Source of the DNA: Watersipora subatra
Lineage: Eukaryota > Bryozoa > Gymnolaemata > Cheilostomatida > Watersiporidae
Reading direction: 5' to 3'
Length of the DNA: 64,000 bases
NCBI RefSeq assembly: GCF_963576615.1
Contig: NC_088708.1
Span: 59,197,196 to 59,261,195 of the forward strand
Shown: positions 1 to 64,000 of the stretch, in pieces
Position numbering within the stretch: the first letter of the stretch is position 1
Layout: the number at the start of each line of letters is the position of its first letter
Made by a program: the position numbers and the translations under genes
The notes under the pieces: model-generated
Database searches by the model: none
What the model was told of the DNA's origin: nothing
Seen by the model: the letters and a program-made list of their open reading frames with translations, nothing else

Positions 1-40
1 TTTCGGAACAATCAATCTTCATTTAAATTGTAAGCAGTTG

Positions 41-51
41 TGGCCGAGTGG
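41..51 (+). promoter_or_regulatory. Internal A box of tRNA-Ser
   Basis: TGGCCGAGTGG, gene bases 8-18, is a standard Pol III A box. It is the reference for the P and R genes. Class Q differs at several of these bases. Confidence 0.85.
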
Positions 52-93
52 TTAAGGCGATTGACTTGAAATCAATTGGGCTATGCCTGCACA

Positions 94-104
94 GGTTCGA
101 ATCC
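94..104 (+). promoter_or_regulatory. Internal B box of tRNA-Ser
   Basis: GGTTCGAATCC, gene bases 61-71, is the TFIIIC-binding B box in its consensus form. It is retained in most copies of all three classes. Confidence 0.85.
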
Positions 105-126
105 TGTCAACTGCGGCGATGTAAAG

Positions 127-132
127 TTTTTT
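127..132 (+). terminator. Pol III terminator, class P (T6)
   Basis: Six T residues starting 12 bases after the tRNA at 34-115. The P genes keep this run, except for the group at 34302 (interrupted) and a T5 version after 5194. Confidence 0.85.
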
Positions 133-340
133 GCGTCCAATAGATGATTTGAGCTTAGCTGAACACGGTTCAGATCAAAAGAGGCGCATACAATCACAAC
201 AGTTTGGTTTTCGATTATTCATGGAGCTTCCGGTGAGCATGGTCTTTCATGTTGCATCTCCAGTTTTTACGACAAGGTGGTTTTACATTCATCGTTTCAA
301 TGACTGCGCAAACGAAATTGTATAAGGAAACCTCAAATCG

Positions 341-350
341 CGAAACCGTT
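341..350 (+). promoter_or_regulatory. Conserved upstream element CGAAACCGTT, Q type
   Basis: A 10-base motif 117 bp upstream of the Q tRNA at 458. The same motif stands 107 bp upstream of R (767-776) and P (1212-1221) genes, although the surrounding spacers have diverged. Function unknown; conservation across classes is what singles it out. Confidence 0.4.
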
Positions 351-407
351 TTAACCTCTATATATGTAAATGCTTGAGAATAACTTCTTCCAATACTTAC
401 TGTCTAG

Positions 408-415
408 ATATATAA
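408..415 (+). promoter_or_regulatory. TATA-like element upstream of Q tRNA
   Basis: ATATATAA at -50 to -43 relative to the tRNA at 458. P genes have the same octamer and R genes usually ATAAATAA at exactly the same offset. Upstream TATA-like elements are known to help TFIIIB placement at some animal and plant tRNA genes. A role here is inferred. Confidence 0.5.
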
Positions 416-457
416 CGTTGACGACTTCCGAACGATCAAACTTCATTTACAATTTAA

Positions 458-539
458 GCAGTTGGGGTCGGTTGGTTGAGGCGATTGACTTGAAATCAAT
501 TGGGCTGTGCCAGCACAGGTTCGAATCCTGTCAGCTGCG
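458..539 (+). tRNA. tRNA-Ser(TGA)-like, class Q, degenerate D-arm
   Basis: Reference Q gene. Acceptor, anticodon and T arms pair, but base 8 is G instead of T, base 14 is G instead of the near-universal A, base 15 is T and base 21 is G. The U8-A14 tertiary contact is therefore lost and the A box is altered. The B box and T6 terminator remain. It may be a pseudogene or a non-tRNA transcript. Confidence 0.6.
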
Positions 540-550
540 AAGGTGCAAAG

Positions 551-556
551 TTTTTT
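551..556 (+). terminator. Pol III terminator, class Q (T6)
   Basis: Six T residues starting 12 bases after the Q tRNA at 458-539, kept in Q units and in P>Q hybrids. Confidence 0.8.
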
Positions 557-823
557 GGCTTCCAATGAATGATTTGAGCCTTGACGAAAATTTTCCAAAT
601 AATGTGAGGCACCTACAATCACAACATTTAGGTTTTACGTTCATTCATAGAACTCCGCAAGAGCAAAATCTTTTATTTCATATCAAAAGTTTTTGCGATT
701 ACTTGGTTTTACATCCAGAGTTTTCAAAATAGCTCAAACAAAGTCGTTTAATGAAACTTTAAATGTCGAAACCGTTGTAACTTTAATGTTTCAACATAGC
801 TTGTCCTAATACTTACGGGCTAG

Positions 824-831
824 ATAAATAT
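824..831 (+). promoter_or_regulatory. AT-rich element upstream of R tRNA
   Basis: ATAAATAT at -50 to -43 of the tRNA at 874 (ATAAATAA in most other R units). Same position as the P and Q octamers. Confidence 0.45.
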
Positions 832-873
832 TGCTGTCGTCTTCAGATCATTCGAACATTATGCTGAACAGAA

Positions 874-955
874 GCAGTTGTGGCTGAGTGGTTAAGGCGA
901 TTGACTCGAAATCAATTGGGCTCTGCCCGCACAGGTTCAAATCCTGTCAACTGCG
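874..955 (+). tRNA. tRNA-Ser(CGA), class R
   Basis: Loop CTCGAAA gives anticodon CGA (reads UCG). Perfect GGGC/GCCC variable stem. D-stem base 12 is T (wobble pair), and the T-loop is TTCAAAT, a common variant. Confidence 0.94.
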
Positions 956-967
956 ATGATGTAAAGC

Positions 968-971
968 TTTT
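968..971 (+). terminator. Pol III terminator, class R (T4)
   Basis: Four T residues starting 13 bases after the R tRNA at 874-955, in the context AGCTTTTCGC (ACCTTTTCGC in most P>R hybrids). A minimal run, so some read-through is plausible. Confidence 0.75.
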
Positions 972-1268
972 CGCATCTATTGGATGATTTGAACTTTACT
1001 GAAAAAGGTTCTTATAATGTGAATCTTGTTTTGTCACATTCGATTGGTGTTGCAAATATTTATGGAACTTCACAAAAGCAAAGTGTTTTATTTTGTATCT
1101 CAAGTTTTTGCCAGTTGTGTGTTTTACATTCGTAGTTTCGATGATGGCTGGAACAAATATACGTGTTTCAATGATGGCGGAAATAAAATTGTAGGATGAA
1201 AGCTCAAATCTCGAAACCGTTGTAACTAAAACGTTTCAGAATAACTTGTTCTAATACTAACTGTCTAA

Positions 1269-1276
1269 ATATATAA
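1269..1276 (+). promoter_or_regulatory. TATA-like element upstream of P tRNA
   Basis: ATATATAA at -50 to -43 of the tRNA at 1319, repeated before practically every P gene. Confidence 0.5.
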
Positions 1277-1318
1277 TGTTGACAATTTCGGAACAATCAA
1301 TCTTCATTTAAAACGCAA

Positions 1319-1400
1319 GCAGTTGTGGCCGAGTGGTTAAGGCGATCGACTTGAAATCAATTGGGCTATGCCCGCACAGGTTCGAATCCTGTCAACTGCG
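1319..1400 (+). tRNA. tRNA-Ser(TGA), class P
   Basis: Standard P gene except for one C-A mismatch in the anticodon stem (GATCGA on the 5' side). Confidence 0.9.
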
Positions 1401-1742
1401 GTGATATAAAGTTTTTTGCGTCCAATAGATGATTTGCGCTTTGCTGAACACGGTTCAGATCAAAAGAGGCGCATACAATCACAACAGTTCGGTTTTCGAT
1501 TATTCATGGAACTTCCGGTGAGCATAGTCTTTCATGTTGCATCTCCAGTTTTTACGACAAGGTGGTTTTACATTCATCGTTTCAATGACTGCGCAAACGA
1601 AATTGTATTTGCAAACCTCAAATCGCAAAACCGTTTTAACCTCTATATATGTAAATGCTTGAGAATAACTTGTTCTAATACTTACTGTCTAGATATATAA
1701 CGTTGACGACTTCCGAACGATCAAACTTCATTTACAATTTAA

Positions 1743-1824
1743 GCAGTTGGGGTCGGTTGGTTGAGGAGATTGACTTGAAATCATTTGGGCTGTGCCTGCA
1801 CAAGTTCGAATCCTGTCAGCCGCG
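1743..1824 (+). tRNA. tRNA-Ser(TGA)-like, class Q, most degenerate
   Basis: Besides the Q D-arm changes, it has a D-stem change, an anticodon-stem mismatch (TCATT), a T-stem A-C mismatch (ACAAG) and an acceptor-stem change (CAGCCGC). Probably a pseudogene. Confidence 0.45.
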
Positions 1825-2158
1825 ATGGTGCAAAGTTTTTTGGCTTCCAATGAATGATTTGAGCCTTGACGAAAATTTTCCAAAAAATGTGAGGCACCTA
1901 CAATCACAACATTTAGGTTTTACGTTCATTCATAGAATTCCGCAAGAGCAAAGTCTTTTATTTCATATCAAAAGTTTTTGCGATTACTTGGTTTTACATC
2001 CAGAGTTTTCAAAATAGCTCAAACAAAGTGGTTTAATGAAACTTTAAATGTCGAAACCGTTGTAACTTTAATGTTTCAACATAGCTTGTCCTAATACTTA
2101 TGGACTAGATAAATAACGCTGTCGACTTCAGATCATTCAAACATTATGCTGAACAGAA

Positions 2159-2240
2159 GCAGTTGTGGCTGAGTGGTTAAGGCGATTGATTAGAAATCAA
2201 TTGGGCTCTGCCCGCACAGGTTGGAATCCTGTCAACTGCG
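2159..2240 (+). tRNA. tRNA-Ser(AGA), class R
   Basis: Loop TTAGAAA gives anticodon AGA (read as IGA for UCU/UCC/UCA). The T-loop is TTGGAAT: the universal C56 is G, which also damages the B box. Function is doubtful. Confidence 0.75.
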
Positions 2241-2603
2241 ATGATGTAAAGCTTTTCGCATCTATTGGATGATTTGAACTTTGTTGAAAAAGGTTCTTAT
2301 AATGTGAATCATGTTTTGTCACATTCGATTGGTGTTGCAAATATTTATGGAGCTTCGCAAAAGCAAAGTCTTTTGTTTTGTATCTCAAGTTTTTGCCAGT
2401 AGTGTGTTTTACATTCGTAGTCTCGATGATGGCTGGAACAAATATACGTGTTTCAATGATGGCGGAAATAAAATTGTAGGATGAAAGCTCAATTCTCGAA
2501 ACCGTTGTAACTTTAATGTTTCAACCTAACTTGTTCTAATACTTACGGACTAGATAAATAATGCTGTCGACTTCAGATCATTCAAACATTATGCTGAACA
2601 GAA
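2241..2603 (+). repeat. R-to-R hybrid spacer, representative (363 bp)
   Basis: Begins as an R 3' spacer but switches to the R-type upstream region (ACTTTAATGTTTCAACC, then GTCGACTTCAGA), so two R genes follow each other without a P or Q unit between. Also seen before 4334, 20629, 22359, 40324 and 53715. The exchange point is in the spacer, not in the tRNA. The T4 run after the upstream tRNA is kept. No gene seen. Confidence 0.8.
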
Positions 2604-2685
2604 GCAGTTGTGGTCGAGTGGTTAAGGCGATTGACTAGAAATCAATTGGGCTCTGCCCGCACAGGTTCGAATCCTTTCAACTGCG
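2604..2685 (+). tRNA. tRNA-Ser(AGA), class R
   Basis: Follows the gene at 2159 directly as a second R unit. One T-stem mismatch (CCTTT on the 3' side); otherwise intact. Confidence 0.87.
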
Positions 2686-3048
2686 ATGATGTAAAGCTTT
2701 TCGCATCTATTGGATGATTTGAACTTTACTGAAATAGGTTCTTATAATGTGAATCTTGTTTTGTCACATTCGGTTGGTGTTGCAAATATTTATGGAACTT
2801 CACAAAAGCAAAGTCTTTTATTTTGTATCTCAAGTTTTTGCCAGTAGTGTGTTTTACATTCGTAGTTTCGATGATGGCTGGAACAAATATACGTGTTTCA
2901 ATGATGGACGAAATAAAATTGTATGATGAAAGCTCAAATCTCGAAACCGTTGTAATTTAAACGTTTCAGAATAACTTGTTCTAATACTAACTGTCTAAAT
3001 ATATGATGTTGACAATTTCTGAACGATCAATCTTCATTTAAAACGTAA

Positions 3049-3130
3049 GCAGTTGTGGTCGAGTGGTTAAGGCGATTGACTTGAAATGAATTGGGCTATG
3101 CCTGCACAGGTTCGAATCCTGTCAACTGCA
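3049..3130 (+). tRNA. tRNA-Ser(TGA), class P, discriminator A
   Basis: Base 73 is A rather than the G expected for serine tRNA, and the anticodon stem has one mismatch (TGAAT). A73 is the leucine-type discriminator in eukaryotes, so charging by SerRS may be weak. Confidence 0.82.
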
Positions 3131-3472
3131 GCGATGTAAAGTTTTTTGCGTCCAATAGATGATTGGAGCTTTGCTGAACCCGGTTCAGATCAAAAGAGGC
3201 GCATACAATCACAACAGTTCGGTTTTCGATTATTCATGGAGCTTCCGGTTGGCATGGTCTTTCATGTTGCATCTCCAGTTTTTACGACAAGGTGCTTTTA
3301 CATTCATCGTTTCAATGACTGCGCAAACGAAATTGTATAAGGAAACCTCAAATCGCGAAACCGTTTTAACCTCTATATATGTGAATGCTTGAGAATAACT
3401 TGTTCTAATACTTAGTGTCTAGATATATAACGTTGACGACTTCCGAACGATCAAACTTCATTTACAATTTAA

Positions 3473-3554
3473 GCAGTTGGGGCCGATTGGTTGAGGCAAT
3501 TGACTTGAAATCAATTGGGCTGTGCCTGCACAGGTTCGAATCCTGTCAACTGTG
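3473..3554 (+). tRNA. tRNA-Ser(TGA)-like, class Q, A14 retained
   Basis: Q subtype with D-arm GCCGATTGG: A14 is present, but G8 and T15 remain. Base 26 is A, and the first acceptor pair is G-T. Confidence 0.62.
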
Positions 3555-3888
3555 ATGATGCAAAGTTTTTTGCCTTCCAATGAATGATTTGAGCCTTGAC
3601 GAAAATTTTCCAAGAAATGTAAGGAACACACAGTCACAACATTTAGGTTTTACAATCATTCATAGAAATCCGCAAGAGCAAAGTCTTTTATTTCATATCA
3701 AAAGTTTTTGCGATTATTTGATTTTACATCCGGAGTTTTCATAATAGCTAAAACAAAGTCGTTTAATGAAACATTAAATGTCGAAACCGTTTTAACTTTA
3801 ATGTTTCAACATAGGTTGTCCTAATACTTATGGACTAGATAAATAACGCTGTCGACTTCAGATCATTCAAACATTATGCTGAACAGAA

Positions 3889-3970
3889 GCAGTTGTGGCC
3901 GAGTGGTTAAGGCGATTGATTAGAAATCAATTGGGTTCTGCCCGTACAGGTTCGAATCCTATCAACTGCG
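3889..3970 (+). tRNA. tRNA-Ser(AGA), class R
   Basis: Intact A and B boxes. One C-A mismatch in the T-stem (CCTAT) and a G-T exchange in the variable arm (GGGT). Confidence 0.88.
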
Positions 3971-4333
3971 ATGATGTAAAGCTTTTCGCATCTATTGGAT
4001 GATTTGAACTTTGTTGAAAAAGGTTCTTATAATGTGAATCATGTTTTGTCACATTCGATTTGTGTTGCAAATAGTTATGGAGCTTCGCAAAAGCAAAGTC
4101 TTTTATTTTGTATCTCAAGTTTTTGCCAGTTGTGTGTTTTACATTCGTAGTCTCGATGATGGCTGGAACAAATATACGTGTTTCAATGATGGCGGAAATA
4201 AAATTGTAGGATGAAAGCTCAATTCTCGAAACCGTTGTAACTTTAATGTTTCAACCTAACTTGTTCTAATACTTACGGACTAGATAAATAATGCTGTCGA
4301 CTTCAGATCATTCAAACATTATGCTGAACAGAA

Positions 4334-4415
4334 GCAGTGTTGGCCGAGTGGTTAAGGCGATTGACTAGAAATCAATTGGGTTCTGCCCGCACAGGTTCGA
4401 ATCCTATCAACTGCG
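4334..4415 (+). tRNA. tRNA-Ser(AGA), class R, altered acceptor
   Basis: Acceptor reads GCAGTGT instead of GCAGTTG (a swap of two adjacent bases), giving two mismatches against CAACTGC. T-stem has the CCTAT mismatch. Possibly inactive. Confidence 0.75.
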
Positions 4416-4778
4416 ATGATGTAAAGCTTTTCGCATCTATTGGATGATTTGAACTTTACTGAAATAGGTTCTTATAATGTGAATCTTGTTTTGTCACATT
4501 CGATTGGTGTTGCAAATATTTATGGAACTTCACAAAAGCAAAGTCTTTTTTTTTGTATCTCAAGTTTTTGCCAGTTGTGTGTTTCACATTCGTAGTTTCG
4601 ATGATGGCTGGAACAAATATACGTGTTTCAATGATGGCGGAAATAAAATTGTAGGATGAAAGCTCAAATCTCGAAGCCGTTGTAACTTAAACGTTTCAGA
4701 ATAACTTGTTCTAATACTAACTGTCTAAATATATAATGTTGACAATTTCGGAACAATCAATCTTCATTTGAATTGTAA

Positions 4779-4860
4779 GCAGTTGTGGCCGAGTGGTTAA
4801 GGCGATTGACTTGAAATCAATTGGGCTATGCCCGCACAGGTTCGAATCCTGTCAACTGCG
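4779..4860 (+). tRNA. tRNA-Ser(TGA), hybrid P>Q
   Basis: Fully paired gene with intact boxes, preceded by P flank and followed by the Q flank with T6, so an exchange occurred within the tRNA. Confidence 0.95.
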
Positions 4861-5193
4861 ATGATGAAAAGTTTTTTGGCTTCCAATGAATGATTTGAGC
4901 CTTGATGAAATTTTCCAAAAACTGTGAGGAACACACAGTCACAACATTTAGGTTTTACGATCATTCATAGAATTCCGCAAGAGCAAAGTCTTTTATTTCA
5001 TATCAAAAGTTTTTGCGATTACTTGGTTTTACATCCAGAGTTTTCATAATAACTAAAACAAAGTCGTTTAATGAAACTTTAAATGTCGAAACCGTTATAA
5101 CTTTAATGTTTCAACCTAGCTTGTCATAATACTTACGGACTAGATAAGTAACGCTGTCGACTTCAGATCATTCAAACATTATGCTGAACAGAA

Positions 5194-5275
5194 GCAGTTG
5201 TGGCCGAGTGGTTAAGGCGATTGACTAGAAATCAATTGGGCTCTGCCCGCACAGGTTCGAATCCTATCAACTGCG
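5194..5275 (+). tRNA. tRNA-Ser(AGA), hybrid R>P
   Basis: R flank upstream, P flank downstream with a T5 terminator. One T-stem mismatch (CCTAT). The retrotransposon lies 215 bp downstream, in this unit's spacer. Confidence 0.9.
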
Positions 5276-5485
5276 GCGATGTAAAGTTTTTGCGTCCAAT
5301 AGATGATTTGAGCTTTGCTGAACACGGTTCAGATCAAAAGAGGCGCATACAATCACAACAGTTCGGTTTTCGATTATTCATGGAGCTTCCGTTGAGCATG
5401 GTCTTTCATGTTGCATCTCCAGTTTTTACGACGAGGTGCTTTTACATTCATCGTTTCAATGACTGCGCAAACGAAATTGTATAAG

Positions 5486-5490
5486 GAAAC
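5486..5490 (+). repeat. Target-site duplication GAAAC, left
   Basis: GAAAC precedes the element at 5486-5490 and follows it at 10129-10133. Neighbouring empty spacers have a single GAAAC at this point (AAGGAAACCTCAAATC). A 5-bp duplication is typical of Ty3/gypsy integrases. Confidence 0.93.
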
Positions 5491-5675
5491 TGTTGTATTG
5501 TAGTTGTTGTATTGTATTATCACAATAAGTCTTGTCTCACAGAAAACACAGCTAACAGGTAAGAAGCACATAAAGGAACTGACTTTGTTAGCAAGCCCAT
5601 AGCTATCGGTTATTAGACAATTATGCGATTATAGCACAGCTAAAAGAAAGCTGACTGCACAGCTAATATGTAACA
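5491..5675 (-). repeat. 3' LTR of retrotransposon copy 1
   Basis: 185 bp, TGTTG...TAACA on the + strand. It ends against the polypurine tract. AT-rich, with internal repetition of TTGTATTG near one end. Confidence 0.93.
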
Positions 5676-5687
5676 CATCTCCCTCAC
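5676..5687 (-). other. Polypurine tract, copy 1
   Basis: GTGAGGGAGATG on the - strand, immediately before the 3' LTR: the expected plus-strand primer position. Confidence 0.8.
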
Positions 5688-5718
5688 TATTCTGAGTTTA
5701 TGGTTAGTCATGACCTTG

Positions 5719-8700
5719 TTAGAACTTAGAACTGTCATAGTAATCAGGTCGTCTTCTATTACGAGTAGGATATCTGGGACTTTGTACTGGCCTGTCATCA
5801 GGTACAGATTGGGCAGGTTGGATGTTAAGATCATTTGAAGCTGTGATGATATTGTCATTGGTCGATGTATCATTAACTTGAAGTCTAGCTTGTAGCTGAT
5901 TGGCATGTCGTCTCCATACACCACGGTCTGTTCGCACAGCATACAGTATGTTACCCAGCTTGTTAATTATCGTTCCAGGTATCCACTTAGGTCCAGAGCT
6001 ATAGTTCCTTGCATAAACCAAAGAGTCTACTTCATACCGTGATGATGTAGAAGATGCTTGACCTGGTGAAAGAGTTTTCTTGTTCTGAATTGGTTTCAGC
6101 AAGGTCAGAGTATTTCTCGGCTGTCGTCCATGTAGAACTTCAGCAGGTGATTTCCAGTTCAAAGAGGGATGAGGTAAACATCTGTAAGTGGTTAAAAACA
6201 GTTGTAGGGCAGTCTTGATTTTCTCCCCTCCTGCACAATTCTTCTCTACAGATTGCTTAAGAGTCTGGACAAATCTCTCCGCTTCTCCATTCGATGCAGG
6301 ATGGAATGCGGGAGATGTTATATGTTTAATGCCATGCATGGTGCAGAACTGGTCAAATTCATTTGACACGAATTGTGGGCCGTTGTCTGTAACAATAGTC
6401 CGAGGAAGACCTTCATGTACAAAGATCTGTCGTAGCACGCCAATTGTGTCCTTAGAAGTAGTTTTTCCTACATCTAGCATAGCAACGTACGGATATCGGG
6501 AATGTGCATCTACACAAACCAACCACATCTGACCTTTAAAAGGTCCTGCATAATCCAAATGAGTTTGTTCCCATGGTAGTTGGGTGGACGGCCAACTTTG
6601 GTAAGTCTTGGCTGGGTCATTAGCACAGATTCGGCAAGGTTCACAAGCTTTGATTAGCTGTTCTATGTCTGCATTGATGCTAGGCCACCATGCGTATCGA
6701 CGAGCAAGCTGTTTTACTCTTTCTACACCCCAGTGTGATGTATGCAGCAAGTCTAACACTTTACTCTTCAGAGCCTGTGGAATGACAACTCTAGTAGTGC
6801 CATCACGTTGCAAAAGCACAGCCTCCCCATGAACAAAAAGAGACTCCCTCATATTCCAATATGGCCGCAAATGTTCATAGCTAGCTGTAAGCTTACTGCG
6901 CCAAAGGCCATTCAGTATCCACTCTTTCACTATCTGTAGTGATGTGTATTTCATGGTTTCTTGTTTAACAGCCTCATCGTCAAGGGGACCATGATCGAGC
7001 TCCTCTTGTATAGTGTGTGAGACCTCAATGCTCTCCTTCTCTTCATCATGGTCAAACTTCGGGTCTGCCCCTATAGGTAACCTGGACAAGCCATCTGCAT
7101 TGCCGTGCTGTGCTGTAGGTTTGTACCTGATGTCATACTGATAAGCCATCAGTGTGAGGGCCCATCTCTGCAGTCGCTGAGCTGTTAAAACGGGGATATT
7201 CTTTTCTGGTGAAAACATGGCAACCAGGGGTTTATGATCAGTAATGAGCGTGAAACGTCTCCCATATAGATACTGTCTAAACTTAGTCACTCCATAGATG
7301 ATAGAAAGCGCTTCTTTCTCTATCTGTGAGTAATTCTTTTGGTGCACGCTCAATGTCTTTGATGCATGTGCTAGTGGTCTTTCAGCTCCATTTTCCTCTT
7401 GTAGGAGTACTGCCCCAATTCCATAGTTAGATGCGTCTGTTGCTAGAACCAGCGGTTTACTCTGGTCAAAATGGGTAAGTTTGGTAGCCTTGATGACACT
7501 TTCTTTAAGAACATGGAAGGCCTTGTCACACTCGTCAGTCCAGTCAAACTCGACATTTTCACGAAGAAACTTGTAGAGGGGGGCTGCTTTGCTAGACAGG
7601 TCAGCAATGTATGAGCCATAATAGTTGATCTTGCCCAAAAACGCCTGTAGCTGTTGTAAGTTCTGTGGTCGTGGAAGCTGTTCAATAGCCTCTATTGCAG
7701 AATTCGAGGGAGTCTTGCCGTTCTTGTCTATTATGTGACCTAGGTATTCAACAGCATTCTTAAAGAACTCGCATTTCTCTCTTTGTATGCGGAGCCCATA
7801 CTCCTGTAGTCTAGCTAAGAGTTTGTCGAGGTTAGACCAGTGCTCACTCTCACTGCTACCAGTGACAATCAGATCATCCAAGTATGCTGCAACTCCAGGT
7901 AAGTCAGCAATCATTGAGTCCATGCATCGCTGAAACTGTGCAGGGCTTGATGCCAATCCAAAACACATCCTGTTGTAGCGAAACAAACCACATTGAGTGT
8001 TGATGACACACAACTTCTTTGCATTATCATCTAACTCTAGTTGCAAGTAGGCATCTGCCAGGTCTATCTTGGAAAAGTGTACCCCGCCTCTCAACTTCTC
8101 TAGCAACTCTTCAAGGCTTGGTAATGGGTGTTGATCAATTGATATTTGTTGGTTCAACATCTTGAAATCACCACATATACGCACTCTTCCATTGGGTTTG
8201 GAAACTGCTACTATTGGAGCAGCATAATCACTAAAGTCCACATGTTCCAAAACACCAGCTTTAACTAATCGATCTAGCTCTTCTTTTACAGCTTGGCGTC
8301 TAGAGAATGGCACTACACGAGGTTTAGAAAAACTTGGTGTGCTTCCTGGTTTCAAGCGTACTGGTACTTTTACCTTTTTACATCGGCCAAGACCTGTCTT
8401 GAAGACATCAGAGTACTTAGAGGAGAGTGCAGCAATTTTGTCCCTAAATCCAATAGGGTTACTTCCTGTGACAGTACAGGTAACATCACAACTACCCTGT
8501 GTCAATATAGCTAGCCCCTGCTGAGAGAGACCGAATTTGTCACTCCAATCTAGACCAAAAAGGTTTGAGCCTTGTGTTGTGTTTACAACAAGAAGTTTGA
8601 GATTTTGTTTTTCCACATCTCCTACCTTCACACTAACTGAACATTGTCCTTTAATCTGTAACTCACTCTGCCCATATGCTTTAAGATGGGTACTGACAGG

Positions 8701-9885
8701 TAAGAGGGGGGGTGATCCAAGACTTTGGTAGCCTTGCAAATCAACTATAGAGCAAGTAGCCCCTGTGTCCCATTGAAACATTGCATCATGACCATTGACA
8801 ACAGTTTTGATCCAAACCTTTCTATTGACTCGTTGGAAAAGATTATCTGAAACTGCATGTACTGAATGATAAGGTTCACTTGCATCAGTGAGCACACTTA
8901 ACACAGAGTTTTCAACTGTCCTAGCAGACTGTTCTGTCTGACTTTGTGTTGCTGTCTTAGCCATACAGACAGCCTCAATGTGACCTTTGACCTCACATTT
9001 CCTGCAGACAAATGCTCTGCAGGGACAATTTTTTCTGTCATGTTTAATGTAACAGCTAGGGCAAGACTTCAACATACCTGTGTTCTGTGCATTAGCTTGT
9101 TGCTTTCCAATGGTTTGTTGACCTCGGCGTGATCTTTGCTTGTACTGACCTGACATTTTGTTTACTGTGTCTTCGATAGCTGGAGAAGTTGTCTCCCCCT
9201 TGAGAATTTTATCGGTCTCCGTTGTCTTGATGAATGCTGTAGCCTTCTTAAGAACATCATTAAGAGAGGGATCAGCATCAAGTAGACACTGGCGACGTAC
9301 ATCAGCATGTGGCGTCTCTTTAGAGATTATGTCACGAATTTGTTCATCAACATAACTAGTGCCACAGCCTGTGCTTTTGCACGTGAAAGCACAGTGCCGT
9401 GCGAGTCCACGAAGTTCTGCAGCCCAATCAACATAGGACTGACCAGTCTTCATCTTACATTGAGAAAATTCAAATCTTGCTGCCTGAACATGTATGGTAT
9501 CTGCAAAGTGTTCATTAAGTTTCTCCGACAACTCAGTAAATGACTTGCTTGTAATATCCTCTGCGCCAAATAAGTTTGACAACAAGTCGTATGTCTCAGC
9601 TCCTACCCAAGATAGTAAGCATGCTCGTTTCTGACTGTCATCTACCACCCGATACACATTAAAGTGCTGATTGAAACGTTGAAGGTACTGGTTCCATTTT
9701 TCTTTACCCCTGTCGTATGCTTCAAACTTGGGTATGGCGACAGCTACTGGTATTGATGCAGCACTATCACTCTTGGTAGCTTCAAACAAGGAGATAAACT
9801 GCTTCTGTAGATCAGCATTTTGCTGCTGGAACTGTTGTTGCTGTTTCTGCATAGCATCGATCAAAGCTTTTATGTTAGGATCCAT
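5719..9885 (-). CDS. gag-pol: Gag-Pol polyprotein of Mag-like Ty3/gypsy element, copy 1
   Basis: One open frame of 1388 residues from the first ATG (MDPNIK...). The frame stays open 18 codons further upstream into the primer-binding region, but without an ATG. Domains in order: Gag with a Gln-rich N-terminal stretch; two zinc knuckles at ~275-307 (CPSCYIKHDRKNC, then CRKCEVKGHIEAVC); aspartic protease with DTGA at ~373; reverse transcriptase with YLDD at ~668-671; RNase H with TDAS at ~816; integrase with an HHCC zinc domain at ~1048-1084 and a D,D35E triad at about D1111, D1167, E1203; then a basic C-terminal tail. Gag and Pol share a frame, as in Steamer and other Mag elements, so mature proteins would come from protease cleavage. 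It would drive reverse transcription in cytoplasmic particles and nuclear integration. The frame looks whole. Whether it is expressed cannot be judged. Confidence 0.95.
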   Translation of the reverse strand: MDPNIKALIDAMQKQQQQFQQQNADLQKQFISLFEATKSDSAASIPVAVAIPKFEAYDRGKEKWNQYLQRFNQHFNVYRVVDDSQKRACLLSWVGAETYDLLSNLFGAEDITSKSFTELSEKLNEHFADTIHVQAARFEFSQCKMKTGQSYVDWAAELRGLARHCAFTCKSTGCGTSYVDEQIRDIISKETPHADVRRQCLLDADPSLNDVLKKATAFIKTTETDKILKGETTSPAIEDTVNKMSGQYKQRSRRGQQTIGKQQANAQNTGMLKSCPSCYIKHDRKNCPCRAFVCRKCEVKGHIEAVCMAKTATQSQTEQSARTVENSVLSVLTDASEPYHSVHAVSDNLFQRVNRKVWIKTVVNGHDAMFQWDTGATCSIVDLQGYQSLGSPPLLPVSTHLKAYGQSELQIKGQCSVSVKVGDVEKQNLKLLVVNTTQGSNLFGLDWSDKFGLSQQGLAILTQGSCDVTCTVTGSNPIGFRDKIAALSSKYSDVFKTGLGRCKKVKVPVRLKPGSTPSFSKPRVVPFSRRQAVKEELDRLVKAGVLEHVDFSDYAAPIVAVSKPNGRVRICGDFKMLNQQISIDQHPLPSLEELLEKLRGGVHFSKIDLADAYLQLELDDNAKKLCVINTQCGLFRYNRMCFGLASSPAQFQRCMDSMIADLPGVAAYLDDLIVTGSSESEHWSNLDKLLARLQEYGLRIQREKCEFFKNAVEYLGHIIDKNGKTPSNSAIEAIEQLPRPQNLQQLQAFLGKINYYGSYIADLSSKAAPLYKFLRENVEFDWTDECDKAFHVLKESVIKATKLTHFDQSKPLVLATDASNYGIGAVLLQEENGAERPLAHASKTLSVHQKNYSQIEKEALSIIYGVTKFRQYLYGRRFTLITDHKPLVAMFSPEKNIPVLTAQRLQRWALTLMAYQYDIRYKPTAQHGNADGLSRLPIGADPKFDHDEEKESIEVSHTIQEELDHGPLDDEAVKQETMKYTSLQIVKEWILNGLWRSKLTASYEHLRPYWNMRESLFVHGEAVLLQRDGTTRVVIPQALKSKVLDLLHTSHWGVERVKQLARRYAWWPSINADIEQLIKACEPCRICANDPAKTYQSWPSTQLPWEQTHLDYAGPFKGQMWLVCVDAHSRYPYVAMLDVGKTTSKDTIGVLRQIFVHEGLPRTIVTDNGPQFVSNEFDQFCTMHGIKHITSPAFHPASNGEAERFVQTLKQSVEKNCAGGEKIKTALQLFLTTYRCLPHPSLNWKSPAEVLHGRQPRNTLTLLKPIQNKKTLSPGQASSTSSRYEVDSLVYARNYSSGPKWIPGTIINKLGNILYAVRTDRGVWRRHANQLQARLQVNDTSTNDNIITASNDLNIQPAQSVPDDRPVQSPRYPTRNRRRPDYYDSSKF

Positions 9886-9931
9886 AGCAAGACAATAGAA
9901 AAATGCTGGCTGTGAGTCCACAATGTTCGTT

Positions 9932-9941
9932 CCTGACACCA
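9932..9941 (-). other. Primer-binding site, copy 1
   Basis: TGGTGTCAGG, starting 2 bases inside the 5' LTR. The first nine bases are complementary to the CCA end of animal tRNA-Leu of the TGACA-CCA type. It does not match the 3' end of the serine tRNAs of this array. Confidence 0.65.
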
Positions 9942-9943
9942 GT

Positions 9944-10128
9944 TGTTGTATTGTAGTTGTTGTATTGTATTATCACAATAAGTCTTGTATCACAGAAAAC
10001 ACAGCTAACAGGTAAGAAGCACATAAAGGAACTGACTTAGTTAGCAAGCCCATAGCTATGGGTTATTAGACAATTATGCGATTATAGCACAGCTAAAAGA
10101 AAGCTGACTGCACAGCTAATATGTAACA
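9944..10128 (-). repeat. 5' LTR of retrotransposon copy 1
   Basis: 185 bp, same ends and length as the LTR at 5491-5675. It would carry the Pol II promoter of the element. Confidence 0.93.
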
Positions 10129-10133
10129 GAAAC
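10129..10133 (+). repeat. Target-site duplication GAAAC, right
   Basis: Second half of the GAAAC duplication. The P-to-Q spacer resumes with CTCAAATCGCG. Confidence 0.93.
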
Positions 10134-10259
10134 CTCAAATCGCGAAACCGTTTTAACCTCTATATATGTAAATGCTTGAGAATAACTTGTTCTAATACTT
10201 ACTGTCTAGATATATAACGTTGACGAGTTCCGAACGATCAAACTTCATTTACAATTTAA

Positions 10260-10341
10260 GCAGTTGGGGTTGGTTGGTTGAGGCGATTGACTTGAAATCA
10301 ATTGGGCTGTGCCTGTACAGGTTCGAATCCTATCAGCTGCG
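10260..10341 (+). tRNA. tRNA-Ser(TGA)-like, class Q
   Basis: First tRNA after the retrotransposon, 131 bp from it. D-arm GTTGGTTGG (G8, G14), T-stem CCTAT mismatch. Confidence 0.55.
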
Positions 10342-10675
10342 ATGGTGCAAAGTTTTTTGGCTTCCAATGAATGATTTGAGCCTTGACGAAAATTTTCCAA
10401 AAAATGTTAGGCACCTACAATCACAACATTTAGGTTTTACGATCATTCATAGAATTCCGCAAGAGCAAAGTCTTTTATTACATATCAAAAGTTTTTGCGA
10501 TTACTTGGTTTTACATCCAGAGTTTTCCAAGTCGCTCAAACAAAATCGTTTAATGAAACATTAAATGTCGAAACCGTTTTAACTTTAATGTTTCAACATA
10601 GGTTGTCCTAATACTTACGGGCTAGATAAATAACGCTGTCGACTTGAGATCATACAAACATTATGCTGAACAGAA

Positions 10676-10757
10676 GCAGTTGTGGTCGAGTGGTTAAGGG
10701 GATTGACTCGAAATCAATTGGTCTCTGCCCGCTCAGGTTCGAATCCTGTCAACTGCG
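10676..10757 (+). tRNA. tRNA-Ser(CGA), class R variant
   Basis: D-stem 3' side is GGG and the T-stem begins TCAGG, giving one mismatch in each arm. Variable arm GGTC. Same subtype as 35142 and 38594. Confidence 0.82.
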
Positions 10758-11118
10758 ATGATGTAAAGCTTTTCGCATCTATTGGATGATTTGAACTTTA
10801 CTGAAATAGGTTCTTATAATGTGAATCTTGTTTTGTCACATCCGATTGGTGCTGCAAATGTTTATGGAACTTCACAAAAGCAGTCTTTTATTTTGTATCT
10901 CAAGTTTTTGCCAGTAGTGTGTTTTACATTCGTAGTTTCGATGATGGCTGGAACAAATATACGTGTTTCAATGATGGCGGAAATAAAATTGTAGGATGAA
11001 AGCTCAAATCTCGAAACCGTAGTAACTTAAACGTTTCAGAATAACTTGTTCTAATACTAACTGTCTAAATATATAATGTTGACAATTTCGGAACGATCAA
11101 TCTTCATTTAAAACGTAA

Positions 11119-11200
11119 GCAGTTGTGGTATAGTGGTTAAGGCGATTGACTTGAAATCAATTGGGCTGTGCCTGCACAGGTTCGAATCCTGTCAACTGTG
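11119..11200 (+). tRNA. tRNA-Ser(TGA), hybrid P>Q with foreign-looking A box
   Basis: Three adjacent bases differ from every sibling, turning the A box into TGGTATAGTGG, the form usual in tRNA-Gly, -Glu and -Asp. This breaks the 3-bp D-stem. The first acceptor pair is G-T. Confidence 0.8.
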
Positions 11201-11534
11201 ATGGTGCAAAGTTTTTTGGCTTCCAATGAATGATTTGAGCCTTGACGAAAATTTTCCAAAAAATGTGAGGAACACACAGTCACAACATTTAGGTTTAACG
11301 ATCATTCATAGAATTCCGCAAGAGCAAAGTTTTTTATTTCATATCAAAGGTTATTGCGATTACTTGGTTTTACATCCAGAGTTTTCATAATAGCTAAAAC
11401 AAAGTCGATCAATGAAACTTTAAATGTCGAAACCGTTGTAACTTTAATGTTTCAACATAGCTTGTCCTAATACTTACGGGCTAGATAAATAACGCTGTCG
11501 CCTTGAGATCATACAAACATTATGCTGAACAGAA

Positions 11535-11615
11535 GCAGTTGTGGTCGAGTGGTTAAGGCGATTGACTAGAAATCAATTGGGCTCTGCCCGCACAGGTTCG
11601 AATCTGTCAACTGCG
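11535..11615 (+). tRNA. tRNA-Ser(AGA), class R, 81 nt
   Basis: One base is missing from the T-stem 3' side (GAATCTGTC rather than GAATCCTGTC), so the T-arm and B box are damaged. Likely inactive. Confidence 0.7.
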
Positions 11616-11978
11616 ATGATGTAAAGCTTTTCGCATCTATTGGATGATTTGAACTTTACTGAAATAGGCTCTTATAAAGTAAATCTCGTTTTGTCACATT
11701 CGATTGGTGTTGCAATTATTTATGGAACTTCACAAAAGCAAAGTCTTTTATTTTGTATCTCAAGTTTTTGCCAGTTGTGTGTTTTACATTCCTAGTTTCG
11801 ATTATGGCTGGAACAAATATACGTGTTTCAATGATGGCGGAAATAAAATTGTAGGATGAAAGCTCAAATCTCGAAACCGTTGTAATTTAAACGTTTCAGA
11901 ATAACTTGTTCTAATACTAACTGTCTAAATATATAATGTTGACAATTTCGGAGCAATCAATCTTCATTTAAAACGTAA

Positions 11979-12060
11979 GCAGTTGTGGCCGAGTGGTTAA
12001 GGCGATTGACTTGAAATCAATTGGGCTATGCCCGCACAGGTTCGAATCCTGTCAACTGCG
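11979..12060 (+). tRNA. tRNA-Ser(TGA), class P
   Basis: Intact gene, first of the 1730-bp module, with T6 terminator. Confidence 0.96.
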
Positions 12061-12402
12061 GCGATGTAAAGTTTTTTGCGTCCAATAGATGATTTGAGCT
12101 TTGCTGAACACAGTTCAGATCAAAAGAGGCGCATACAATCACAACAGTTCGGTTTTCGATTATTCATGGAGCTTCCGGTGAGCATGGTCTTTCATGTTGC
12201 ATCTCTAGTTTTTACGACAAGGTGGTTTTACATTCATCGTTTCAATGACTGTGCAAACGAAATTGTATAAGGAAACCTCAAATCGCGAAACCGTTTTAAC
12301 CTCTATATATGTAAACGCTTGAGATTAACTTGTTCTAATACTTACTGTCTAGATATATAACATTGACGACTTCCGAACGATCAAACTTCGTTTACAATTT
12401 AA

Positions 12403-12484
12403 GCAGTTGGGGTCGGTTGGTTGAGGCGATTGACTTGAAATCAATTGGGCTGTGCCCGCACAGGTTCGAATCCTATCAGCTGCG
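12403..12484 (+). tRNA. tRNA-Ser(TGA)-like, class Q
   Basis: Second gene of the 1730-bp module. Q D-arm (G8, G14), T-stem CCTAT mismatch, B box intact. Confidence 0.58.
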
Positions 12485-12818
12485 ATGGTGCAAAGTTTTT
12501 TGGCTTCCAATGAATGATTTGAGCCTTGACGAAAATTTTCCAAAAACTTTGAGGCACCTACAATCACAACATTTAGGTTTTACGATCATTCATAGAATTC
12601 CGCAAGAGCAAAGTCTTTTATTTCATATCAAAAGTTTTTGCGATTACTTGGTGTTACAGCCAGAGTTTTCAAAGTAGCTCAAACAAAGTCGTTTAATGAA
12701 ACATTAAATGTCGAAACCGTTTTAACTTTAATGTTTCAACATAGGTTGTCCTAATACTTACGGGCTAGATAAATAACGCTGTCGACTTCAGATCGTTCAA
12801 ACATTATGCTGAACAGAA

Positions 12819-12900
12819 GCAGTTGTGGCCGAGTGGTTAAGGCGATTGACTCGAAATCAATTGGGCTCTGCCCGCACAGGTTCGAAACCTGTCAACTGTG
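12819..12900 (+). tRNA. tRNA-Ser(CGA), class R
   Basis: Third gene of the module. T-loop TTCGAAA and a G-T first acceptor pair; otherwise sound. Confidence 0.9.
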
Positions 12901-13263
12901 ATGATGTAAAGCTTTTCGCATCTATTGGATGATTTGAACTTTACTGAAATAGGTTCTTATAATGTGAATCTTGTTTTGTCACATTCGATTGGTGTTGCAA
13001 ATATTTATGGAACTTCACAAAAGCAAAGTCTTTTATTTTGTATCTCAAGTTTTTGCCAGTAGTGTGTTTTACATTCGTAGTTTCGATGATGGCTGGAACA
13101 AATATACGTGTTTCAATGATGGCGGAAATAAAATTGTAGGATGAAAGCTCAAATCTCGAAACCGTTGTAATTTAAACGTTTCAGAATAACTTGTTCTAAT
13201 ACTAACTGTCTAAATATATAATGTTGACAATTTCGGAACAATCAATCTTCATTTAAAACGTAA

Positions 13264-13345
13264 GCAGTTGTGGCCGAGTGGTTAAGGCGATTGACTCGAA
13301 ATCAATTGGGCCCTGCCCGCACAAGTTCGAATCCTGTCAACCGCG
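13264..13345 (+). tRNA. tRNA-Ser(CGA), hybrid P>R
   Basis: P flank upstream, R flank downstream (T4). Variable arm GGGCCCTGCCC. T-stem A-C mismatch (ACAAG) and acceptor A-C mismatch (CAACCGC). Confidence 0.82.
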
Positions 13346-13708
13346 ATGATGTAAACCTTTTCGCATCTATTGGATGATTTGAACTTTACTGAAATAGGTT
13401 CTTATAATGTGAATCTTGTTTTGTCACATTCGATTGGTGTTGCAAATATTTATGGAACTTCACAAAAGCAAAGTCTTTTATTTTGTATCTCAAGTTTTTG
13501 CCAGTAGTGTGTTTTACATTCCTAGTTTCGATGATGGCTGGAACAAATATACGTGTTTCAATGATGGCGGAAATAAAATTGTAGGATGAAAGCTCAAATC
13601 TCGAAACCGTTGTAATTTAAACGTTTCAGAATAACTTGTTCTAATACTAACTGTCTAAATATATAATGTTGACAATTTCGGAGCAATCAATCTTCATTTA
13701 AAACGTAA

Positions 13709-13790
13709 GCAGTTGTGGCCGAGTGGTTAAGGCGATTGACTTGAAATCAATTGGGCTATGCCCGCACAGGTTCGAATCCTGTCAACTGCG
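13709..13790 (+). tRNA. tRNA-Ser(TGA), class P
   Basis: Second module copy of 11979; intact. Confidence 0.96.
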
Positions 13791-14132
13791 GCGATGTAAA
13801 GTTTTTTGCGTCCAATAGATGATTTGAGCTTTGCTGAACACAGTTCAGATCAAAAGAGGCGCATACAATCACAACAGTTCGGTTTTCGATTATTCATGGA
13901 GCTTCCGGTGAGCATGGTCTTTCATGTTGCATCTCTAGTTTTTACGACAAGGTGGTTTTACATTCATCGTTTCAATGACTGTGCAAACGAAATTGTATAA
14001 GGAAACCTCAAATCGCGAAACCGTTTTAACCTCTATATATGTAAACGCTTGAGATTAACTTGTTCTAATACTTACTGTCTAGATATATAACATTGACGAC
14101 TTCCGAACGATCAAACTTCGTTTACAATTTAA

Positions 14133-14214
14133 GCAGTTGGGGTCGGTTGGTTGAGGCGATTGACTTGAAATCAATTGGGCTGTGCCCGCACAGGTTCGAA
14201 TCCTATCAGCTGCG
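14133..14214 (+). tRNA. tRNA-Ser(TGA)-like, class Q
   Basis: Second module copy of 12403. Confidence 0.58.
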
Positions 14215-14548
14215 ATGGTGCAAAGTTTTTTGGCTTCCAATGAATGATTTGAGCCTTGACGAAAATTTTCCAAAAACTTTGAGGCACCTACAATCACAAC
14301 ATTTAGGTTTTACGATCATTCATAGAATTCCGCAAGAGCAAAGTCTTTTATTTCATATCAAAAGTTTTTGCGATTACTTGGTGTTACAGCCAGAGTTTTC
14401 AAAGTAGCTCAAACAAAGTCGTTTAATGAAACATTAAATGTCGAAACCGTTTTAACTTTAATGTTTCAACATAGGTTGTCCTAATACTTACGGGCTAGAT
14501 AAATAACGCTGTCGACTTCAGATCGTTCAAACATTATGCTGAACAGAA

Positions 14549-14630
14549 GCAGTTGTGGCCGAGTGGTTAAGGCGATTGACTCGAAATCAATTGGGCTCTG
14601 CCCGCACAGGTTCGAAACCTGTCAACTGTG
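14549..14630 (+). tRNA. tRNA-Ser(CGA), class R
   Basis: Second module copy of 12819. Confidence 0.9.
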
Positions 14631-23712: not shown

Positions 23713-23743
23713 TATTCTGAGTTTATGGTTAGTCATGACCTTG

Positions 23744-60630: not shown

Positions 60631-60712
60631 GCAGTTGTGGCCGAGTGGTTAAAGCGATTGATTAGAAATCAATTGGGCTCTGCCCGCACAGGTTCGAATC
60701 CTGTCAACTGCG
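60631..60712 (+). tRNA. tRNA-Ser(AGA), class R
   Basis: U3 copy of 32989, present here but missing from U2. Confidence 0.87.
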
Positions 60713-61075
60713 ATGATGTAAAGCTTTTCGCATCTATTGGATGATTTGAACTTTGTTGAAAAAGGTTCTTATAATGTGAATCATGTTTTGTCACATTCGA
60801 TTGGTGTTGCAAATAGTTATGGAGCTTCGCAAAAGCAAAGTCTTTTATTTTGTATCTCAAGTTTTTGCCAGTTGTGTGTTTTACATTCGTATTCTCGATG
60901 ATGGCTGGAACAAATATACGTGTTTCAATAATGGCGGAACTAAAATTGTAGGATGAAAGCTCAATTCTCGAAACCGTTGTAATTTAATTGTTTCAGAATA
61001 ACTTGTTCTAATACTAACTGTCTAAATATATAATGTTGACAATTTCGGAACAGTCAATCTTCATTTAAAACGTAA

Positions 61076-61157
61076 GCAGTCGTGGCCGAGTGGTTAAGGC
61101 GTTTGACTAGAAATCAATTGGGCTCTGCCCGCACAGGTTCGAATCCTATCAACTGCG
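61076..61157 (+). tRNA. tRNA-Ser(AGA) in class P flanks
   Basis: U3 copy of 33434. Confidence 0.83.
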
Positions 61158-61499
61158 GCGATGTAAAGTTTTTTGCGTCCAATAGATGATTGGAGCTTTG
61201 CTGAACACGGTTCAGATCAAAAGAGGCGCATACAATCACAACAGTTCGGTTTTCGATTATTCATGGAGCTTCCGGTGAGCATGGTCTTTCATGTTGCATC
61301 TCCAGTTTTTACGACGAGGTGCTTTTACATTCATCGTTTCAATGACTGCGCAAACGAAATTGTATTAGGAAACCTCAAATCGCGAAACCGTTTTAACCTC
61401 TATATATGTAAATGCTTGAGAATAACTTGTTCTAATACTTACTGTCTAGATATATAACGTTTACGACTTCCGAACGATCAAACTTCATTTACAATTTAA

Positions 61500-61581
61500 G
61501 CAGTTGGGGTCGGTTGGTTGAGGCGATTGACTTGAAATCAATTGGGCTGTGCCTGCACAGGTTTGAATCCTGTCAACTGCG
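61500..61581 (+). tRNA. tRNA-Ser(TGA)-like, class Q
   Basis: U3 copy of 33858. Confidence 0.5.
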
Positions 61582-61943
61582 ATGATGTAAAGTTTTTTGG
61601 CTTCCAATGAATGATTTGAGCCTTGATGAAATTTTCCAAAAAATGTGAGGAACACACAGTCACAACATTTAGGTTATACGATCATTCATAGAATTCCGCA
61701 AAAGCAAAGTCTTTTATTTTGTATCAAAAGTTTTTGCCAGTTGTGTGTTCTACATTCGTAGTTTCGATGATGGCTGAAACAAATATACGTGTTTCAATGA
61801 TGGCGAAAATAAAATTGTAGGATGAAAGCTCAAATCTCGAAACCGTTGTAATTTAAACGTTTCAGAATAACTTGTTCTAATACTAACTGTCTAAATATAT
61901 AATGTTGACAATTTCGGAACAACAATCTTCATTTAAAACGTAA

Positions 61944-62025
61944 GCAGTCGTGGCTGAGTGGTTAAGGCGATTGACTAGAAATCAATTGGGCTCTGCCCGC
62001 ACAGGATCGAATCCTGTTAACTGCG
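61944..62025 (+). tRNA. tRNA-Ser(AGA) in class P flanks, no clear terminator
   Basis: U3 copy of 34302. Confidence 0.78.
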
Positions 62026-62367
62026 GCGATGTAAAGTTATTTGCGTCCAATAGATGATTTGAGCTTTGCGGAACACAGTTCAGATCAAAAGAGGCGCATA
62101 CAATCACAACAGTTCGGTTTTCGATTATTCATGGAGCTTCCGGTGAGCATGGTCTTTCATGTTGCATCTCCAGTTTTTACGACAAGGTGGTTTTACATTC
62201 ATCGTTTCAATGACTGCGCAAACGAAATTGTATAAGGAAACCTCAAATTGCGAAACCGTTTTAACCTCTATATATGTAAATGCTTGAGAATAACTTGTTC
62301 TAATACTTACTGTCTAGATATATAACGTTGACGACTTCCGAACGATCAAACTTAATTTACAATTTAA

Positions 62368-62449
62368 GCAGTTGGGGTCGGGTGGTTGAGGCGATTGACT
62401 TGAAATCAATTGGGCTGTGCCTGCACAGGTTCGAATCCTGTCAACTGTG
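62368..62449 (+). tRNA. tRNA-Ser(TGA)-like, class Q
   Basis: U3 copy of 34726. Confidence 0.58.
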
Positions 62450-62783
62450 ATGATGCAAAGTTTTTTGGCTTCCTATGAATTATTTGAGCCTTGACGAAAA
62501 TTTTCCAAAAAATGTGAGGAACACACAGTCACAACATTTAGGTTTTACGATCATTCATAGAATTCCGCAAGAGCAAAGTCTTTTATTTCATATCAAAAGT
62601 TTTTGCGATTACTTGGTTTTACATCCAGAGTTTTCATAATAGCTAAAACCAAGGCGTTTAATGAAACTTGAAATGTCGAAACCGTTGTAACTTTAATGTT
62701 TTAACATAACTTGTCCTAATACTTACGGACTAGATAAATAACGCTGTCGACTTCAGATCATTCAAACATTATGCTGAACAGAA

Positions 62784-62865
62784 GCAGTTGTGGTCGAGTG
62801 GTTAAGGGGATTGACTCGAAATCAATTGGGCTCTGCCCGCTCAGGTTCGAATCCTGTCAACTGCG
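62784..62865 (+). tRNA. tRNA-Ser(CGA), class R variant
   Basis: U3 copy of 35142. Confidence 0.83.
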
Positions 62866-63228
62866 ATGATGTAAAGCTTTTCGCATCGATTGGATGATTT
62901 GAACTTTGCTGAAATAGGTTCTTATAATGTGAAACTTGTTTTGTCACATTCGATTGGTGCTGCAAATGTTTATGGAACTTCACAAAAGCAAAGTCTTTTA
63001 TTTTGTATCTCAAGTTTTTGCCAGTAGTGTGTTTTACATTCGTAGTTTCGATGATGGCTGGAACAAATATACGTGTTTCAATGATGGCGGAAATAAAATT
63101 GTAGGATGAAAGCTCAAATCTCGAAACCGTAGTAACTTAAACGTTTCAGAATAACTTGTTCTAATACTAACTGTCTAAATATATAATGTTGACAATTTCG
63201 GAACGATCAATCTTCATTTAAAACGTAA

Positions 63229-63310
63229 GCAGTTGTGGTCGAGTGGTTAAGGCGATTCATTTGAAATCAATTGGGCTGTGCCTGCACAGGTTCGAATCCT
63301 ATCAACTGCG
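63229..63310 (+). tRNA. tRNA-Ser(TGA), hybrid P>R
   Basis: U3 copy of 35587. Confidence 0.82.
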
Positions 63311-63673
63311 ATGATGTAAAGCTTTTCGCATCTATTGGATCATTTGAACTTTACTAAAATAGGTTCTTATAATGTGAATCTTGTTTTGTCACATTCGATT
63401 GGTGTTGCAAATATTTATGGAACTTCACAAAAGCAAAGTCTTTTATTTTGTATCTCAACTTTTTGCCAGTTGTGTGTTTTACATTCGTAGTTTCGATGAT
63501 GGCTGGAACAAATATACGTGTTTCAATGATGGCGGAAATAAACTTGTAGGATGAAAGCTCAAATCTCGAAACCGTTGTAATTTAAACGTTTCAGAATAAC
63601 TTGTTCTAATACTAACTGTCTAAATATATAATGTTGACAATTTCGGAACAATCAATCTTCATTTAAAACGTAA

Positions 63674-63755
63674 GCAGTTGTGGCCGAGTGGTTAAGGCGA
63701 TTGACTTGAAATCAATTGGGCTATGCCCGCACAGGTTCGAATCCTATCAGCTGCG
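63674..63755 (+). tRNA. tRNA-Ser(TGA), hybrid P>Q
   Basis: U3 copy of 36032, last tRNA in the window. The remaining 245 bp are Q-to-R spacer. Confidence 0.9.
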
Positions 63756-64000
63756 ATGGTGCAAAGTTTTTTGGCTTCCAATGAATGATTTGAGCCTTGA
63801 CGAAAATTTTCCAAAAAATTTGAGGCACCTACAATCACAACATTTAGGTTTTACGATCATTCATAGCATTCCGCAAGAGCAAAGTCTTTTATTACATATC
63901 AAAAGTTTTTGCGATTACTTGGTTTTACATCTAGAGTTTTCATAATAGCTAAAACAAAGTCGATCAATGAAACTTTAAATGTCGAAACCGTTGTAACTTT

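Follow-up and report, generated by a model that had tools for sequence, protein, structure and literature searches.

A recently grown higher-order array of serine tRNA genes in the bryozoan Watersipora subatra, with past constraint and present per-copy neutrality

A 64,000-nucleotide stretch of the Watersipora subatra genome (contig NC_088708.1 of assembly GCF_963576615.1, positions 59,197,196 to 59,261,195), referred to here as the window, carries one long tandem array of genes for the serine transfer RNA (tRNA) that reads the UCN codon box, and raises the question of why so many copies of a single tRNA gene stand in a row. The first-pass annotation of the window offered three answers, namely that the array supplies tRNA, that it serves as chromatin structure, or that it is a satellite with a tRNA gene at its core. 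Our analysis speaks for the first and the third in combination, and a chromatin role found no support here. On the side of supply, the genes were once constrained and a good part of them is still canonical; on the side of a satellite, the copies mutate as freely as the spacers between them, and satellite-like block duplication drives the growth of the array. We consider it probable that the array is a nuclear tRNA-Ser(UCN) family in tandem-array form, highly redundant and presumably active in part, which evolves by birth and death or by concerted evolution.

ARAGORN and Rfam (RF00005) each called 125 tRNA-Ser genes, all on the plus strand and none on the other, and blastn with the array's own tRNAs as queries raised the number to 127, the two additional copies (starting at 1743 and 19768) being degenerate and missed by both programs. 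The 125 genes recovered by both have the cloverleaf, long variable arm and UCN anticodon of a tRNA-Ser(UCN), and per-gene Rfam E-values of 1e-12 to 2e-3 show that the array is not a product of chance. The anticodon is UGA (TGA in the DNA) in 69 genes, AGA in 35 and CGA in 23, interleaved along the array, and 50 different 82-nt tRNA bodies occur among the 127 copies. Evenly spaced at 415-445 bp and placed head to tail, the 127 similar units make a tandem array of the kind that counts its tRNA units in tens to hundreds. Because the first gene begins at 34 and the last one that is complete runs to 63755, both edges of the window lie inside the array. The count, the single orientation, the interleaved isoacceptors and the open edges proposed in the first-pass annotation were thus all recovered, as was the lack of a host protein gene: among open reading frames (ORFs) of at least 120 aa in the window we found none from the host, the survey returning a retrotransposon polyprotein, present twice, and one chance ORF crossing a tRNA unit, which appears twice because its segment is duplicated. 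The further proposal that tRNA units fill the whole window had to be given up, as two copies of a long terminal repeat (LTR) retrotransposon take up 9.3 kb (14% of the window) and leave an array proper of ~54.7 kb. Exact searches of GTDB genomes and IMG/VR with the tRNA 5′ half and with a degenerate core returned no match.

We defined a unit as a tRNA gene together with the spacer 3′ of it. By their spacers the units sort into three classes, A (424 bp, 29 units), B (416 bp, 39 units) and C (445 bp, 59 units), with mean whole-unit distances of 3-6% within a class and 24-28% between classes, and they follow one another in ABC and ABCC motifs and variants of these, with some exchanges. Superimposed on this order are block duplications (Table 1), one a local ABCC repeat and two larger, of 13.4 and 18.0 kb, whose copies are ~99.9% identical. 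The array is a higher-order repeat of very recent growth. Three of the right-hand block ends sit inside tRNA genes, a position that suggests unequal crossing-over there, at a resolution limited by the similarity of all tRNA bodies. The same blocks invite the suspicion that copy number was inflated in assembly: if the identical 12-kb and 18-kb blocks were one path entered twice, the real array would be much shorter. In favour of this, a 12,057-bp stretch recurs without any difference, and between the retrotransposon copies there is none either. We judge this very improbable, given that block copies hold scattered private differences, that block ends fall inside units or tRNA genes and join different unit types, and that 53 distinct unit lineages are left after the duplicated blocks are removed.

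The retrotransposon copies fill two 5,066-bp gaps between adjacent tRNA gene starts. The element has 185-bp LTRs, a GAAAC target-site duplication and one open gag-pol ORF of 1,388 aa, and its Pfam domains stand in the order protease, reverse transcriptase, RNase H and integrase, that of a Ty3/Gypsy element. Its LTRs differ at 3 of 185 sites (1.6%) and the two element copies at none, so that a single insertion was duplicated later with its surroundings. The element is intact and possibly still active in the host. The sequence beside its 5′ LTR (TGGTGTCAGGA...) resembles a primer-binding site for tRNA-Leu, judged by the 3′ ends of metazoan tRNA-Leu. A search of IMG/VR found no relatives of its protein. 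In architecture, the one respect compared, it is like MchSLE1, a Steamer-like LTR retrotransposon of the mussel Mytilus chilensis with a length of 4,758 bp (4.6-4.8 kb for the two elements), 185-bp LTRs and a single gag-pol ORF of 1,376 aa, but the primer site of MchSLE1 is of the Asn type and that of the element here is Leu-like (PMC11046912).

The tRNA genes themselves are in very unequal condition. Thirty-six of the 127 copies are fully canonical, with all checked stem pairs and conserved core nucleotides in place (19 UGA, 11 CGA and 6 AGA); single stem mismatches mark 25 and multiple ones 26, and a further 40 lack a core nucleotide. Among the damaged copies the biggest group is one of 29 UGA genes, the D-arm variants, almost throughout of class B; they carry U8 to G8 and A21 to G21 changes, mostly with G15 to T15 and A14 to G14 as well, have a broken internal A box and are predicted to misfold. 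An A box of canonical form is present in 94 copies. When three intact bodies (UGA, AGA and CGA) were folded, the minimum-energy structure was the cloverleaf in each case; in two D-arm variants the D arm is predicted to pair with the anticodon arm, and a third, more degenerate one is predicted to misfold too. A run of four to six T residues (T4-T6) starts 11-12 nt 3′ of the gene in 124 of the 127 copies, TTTT occurs inside none of the 127, and no gene of the array encodes CCA. Taken with the internal RNA polymerase III boxes and the inserted LTR retrotransposon, these traits agree with a eukaryotic and most probably animal genome. Raw tRNA gene counts are misleading at such a locus, where 127 predicted serine genes come down to 36 canonical ones and ~53 independent lineages. 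Two alleles recur with the duplicated blocks: a class A gene present in three block copies (34302, 47693 and 61944) has lost its T-run terminator (GTTATTTG) and has a T-loop change, T63A, and a tRNA-Ser(AGA) allele with a T arm one base short (GAATCTGTC) lies at 11535-11615 and 29560-29640, in both copies of the 18-kb block.

Selection on these genes was assessed by setting old divergence between classes against recent variation within them, the within-class variants being counted after block copies had been collapsed to 53 lineages. Between classes, spacers diverge by 0.28-0.32 and tRNA bodies by 0.07-0.105; the consensus sequences of A and C differ at 2 of 82 tRNA positions (34 and 50) as against 88 of 332 spacer positions. 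With tRNA divergence so far below that of the spacer, the genes must have been constrained in the past. Private variants within class show no such disparity (16 in the tRNA and 60 in the spacer for A and C). Set against the differences between classes, they give a significant contrast for A with C (Fisher P = 9e-5) and a weaker one for A with B (P = 0.02). Per site, private variants reach the same density in tRNA (23/246, 9.3%) and spacer (95/1039, 9.1%; P = 0.90), which indicates that single copies now evolve neutrally. Variants that damage a stem or a conserved nucleotide make up 16 of the 23 in the tRNA and are no rarer than chance would have them (51-62%). The terminator T-runs were not significantly less variable than the spacer (2/16 sites, P = 0.21). 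In our reading, past constraint would have been followed by amplification and by relaxed selection on single copies, in line with what redundancy predicts.

The main rival holds that the array is a transcriptionally silent satellite of tRNA-gene origin, spread by selfish or neutral amplification and kept as heterochromatin, while the tRNA-Ser genes that do the work lie elsewhere. Private mutations as frequent in tRNA bodies as in spacers, the core nucleotides lost in 40 copies and a retrotransposon that inserted and was then co-amplified all speak for it, and there is a precedent in a tRNA-Ser/Tyr cluster of Arabidopsis that is silent in most tissues (PMC12308677). We nevertheless consider it unlikely, because fully canonical copies persist for all three anticodons, because nearly all copies have kept the terminator, and because a redundant but active array would give identical per-copy neutrality. 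CpG content points the same way: the observed/expected ratio is 1.09-1.50 in the spacer consensus sequences, which are not depleted, and 0.41 in the inserted retrotransposon, which strongly is, a contrast that speaks against long-standing CpG methylation of the array in the germline.

Several points nonetheless weigh against a once-constrained and still partly active family. A silent array fits per-copy neutrality equally well, and gene conversion within the tRNA, instead of selection, could partly explain why tRNA bodies are so alike between classes. CpG transitions among units are 1.6- to 3.3-fold above those at other C/G sites, so some recent methylation of the array is possible. Lastly, a TATA-like motif lies at −49 upstream of 106 genes, but its block is conserved no better than chance and does not demonstrate an upstream promoter element.

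Spacer conservation bears as well on a role of the array as chromatin boundary or insulator, mediated by TFIIIC or a CTCF-like factor; a human tRNA variable-number tandem repeat (VNTR) at 1q23.3 that binds CTCF has been suggested to act as a boundary (PMC4041453). No non-tRNA block of the spacer was significantly more conserved than the spacer average (P = 0.60 for the best 20-bp window), the 29 D-arm variants have a broken A box, and the domains that such a boundary would separate fall outside the window; there is little to recommend this role, and we assign it a very slim chance. Slimmer still is the chance that the units are tandem copies of a tRNA-headed mobile element, either a short interspersed element (SINE) or a terminal-repeat retrotransposon in miniature (TRIM) of the Helenus type. 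The tRNA-like sequences of Helenus TRIMs do inflate tRNA-Ser counts, and such elements can stand in tandem arrays (PMC10886601), yet the units here align with one another end to end, run strictly head to tail, and each hold a full-length tRNA gene with a terminator for RNA polymerase III (Pol III) and without CCA. Kojima moreover describes Helenus as mostly unable to encode functional tRNA, whereas three intact bodies of the array fold as cloverleaves. No self-derived primer-binding site, that is one of tRNA-Ser type, occurs in the units within the window. On the strength of the continuous full-length homology, the terminators, the missing CCA and the lack of a tRNA-Ser-type primer site within the window, we rejected a SINE or TRIM origin.

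What remains to be accounted for is the mixture of anticodons. Judged from the sequence, the three anticodons together should decode all UCN codons. On a tree of class C spacers they need at least 9 changes, compared with a mean of 11.3 after shuffling, the branching being weakly supported. This result supports repeated exchange or switching of isoacceptors but, on a poorly resolved tree, no particular route of switching; changes at position 34 together with recombination between units could easily explain the interleaving. A complete UCN decoding set within one array is also what would be expected of a specialised supply, turned on in one tissue or stage to make proteins rich in serine, such as mucins, silks or repeat glycoproteins, much as in the Arabidopsis SYY cluster, where developmental reactivation of Ser/Tyr tRNA genes offers a precedent (PMC12308677). 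Single copies show no sign of present selection, and we think this explanation improbable. An elaboration, in which the array would be a developmentally switched serine tRNA reserve with the full UCN decoding set, recombination and anticodon changes would continually shift the ratio of its isoacceptors, and its D-arm variants would give a separate stable tRNA-like RNA, is a conjecture to which we lend very little credence.

We therefore return to the redundant and partly active gene family, for which the following course of events may be proposed. The array would have started as a trimer of diverged units A-B-C (~1,285 bp) carrying UGA, the UGA D-arm variant and CGA/AGA, respectively. Unequal crossing-over between units, the presumed copying route, would have amplified this trimer, after which ever larger blocks (1.7, 13.4 and 18.0 kb) were duplicated. 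Each unit would be a self-contained Pol III gene, 82 nt long, with A and B boxes inside it and a T4-T6 terminator behind it. Selection acted on the ancestral genes and is by now too weak to detect on single copies. The array would thus work by redundancy: some 36 intact genes could supply tRNA-Ser, provided that this subset is transcribed, and some 40 copies with lost core nucleotides would be carried along as pseudogenes.

Table 1 Positions of the array, its block duplications, representative genes and the inserted element within the window.
Feature	Position	Strand	Evidence or remarks
Tandem array of 127 tRNA-Ser (UCN) genes with two retrotransposon interruptions, open at both edges	1..64000	+	ARAGORN, Rfam, blastn
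18,025-bp block	1..13323, repeated at +18,025 as 18026-31348	+	10 mismatches in 13.3 kb; includes the retrotransposon
13,391-bp block	33348..46896, repeated at +13,391 as 46739-60287	+	8 mismatches in 13.5 kb; 12,057-bp exact stretch
Local 1,730-bp ABCC repeat, about three tandem copies	11627..15502 (copies span 11.6-17.2 kb)	+	Homology at +1,730
First gene in the window, intact class A tRNA-Ser(UGA)	34..115	+	ARAGORN, structural audit
Commonest body (9 copies), intact tRNA-Ser(UGA)	4779..4860	+	Rfam 68.0 bits; cloverleaf fold
Intact tRNA-Ser(AGA), 6 copies	36448..36529	+	Cloverleaf fold
Intact tRNA-Ser(CGA), 2 copies	44650..44731	+	Minimum-energy fold is the cloverleaf
D-arm-variant body, example (29 copies)	458..539	+	Further examples at 10260-10341 and 38178-38259
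Degenerate copy	1743..1824	+	Not called by ARAGORN or Rfam; second copy at 19768
LTR retrotransposon, first copy, 4,638 bp	5491..10128	-	
LTR retrotransposon, second copy	23516..28153	-	0 mismatches in 4,638 bp; carried by the 18-kb duplication

The array belongs with the tandem tRNA arrays already published for Nippostrongylus, Hydractinia, Entamoeba, Arabidopsis (SYY) and human 1q23.3. Long reads revealed ~90 head-to-tail tRNA-Ser copies and ~150 tRNA-Trp copies in Nippostrongylus brasiliensis, with a species-specific spacer (PMC5765664); the head-to-tail tRNA-Ser genes are shared with the array here, while the spacer measures 80 bp there and 340-360 bp here. The available part of that account makes no mention of an isoacceptor mixture, unit classes, block duplication or a pseudogene class, all of which are present in W. 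subatra. In Hydractinia every one of the 20 amino acids has arrays, made up of tens to hundreds of near-identical tRNA genes, and some arrays occur in Nematostella (PMC11067881). These too are animal tRNA arrays with spacers of several hundred bases, and within the accessible portion of that source a higher-order repeat, a retrotransposon insertion and a selection analysis, as reported here, are not described. These two published precedents make the first-pass description of so long a UCN-serine array with three anticodons as unusual too strong.

Entamoeba likewise has tandem tRNA-bearing units that are homogenised by concerted evolution, with inactive copies suspected, but as many as five different tRNA genes share a unit there, almost all of its tRNA set is arranged in this way, and E. 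histolytica and E. dispar, unlike the array here, have short tandem repeats between the tRNA genes (PMC2652664). The Arabidopsis SYY cluster is similar in its tandem tRNA-Ser genes, in copies that are merely tRNA-like and in its growth by duplication; it differs in that it is a plant cluster whose units mix Ser and Tyr genes and lie in silenced, methylated heterochromatin in most tissues (PMC12308677). The human 1q23.3 VNTR is also a tandem tRNA repeat that changes in copy number, although its units are GC-rich, 7.3 kb long, present in 9-43 copies and provided with a CTCF site (PMC4041453).

To these known arrays the W. subatra locus adds the presence of three isoacceptors side by side, a higher-order structure with three clear classes and a co-amplified retrotransposon, along with a pseudogene class of large size and measurements that set past against present constraint. 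It offers a clean case for the study of selection on a gene with more than 100 copies: constraint shows between classes, where it is old, but not within them, and block copying, up to 18 kb at a time, is remaking the array. Should they be expressed, arrays of this kind would have a bearing on the way in which animals set their tRNA supply.

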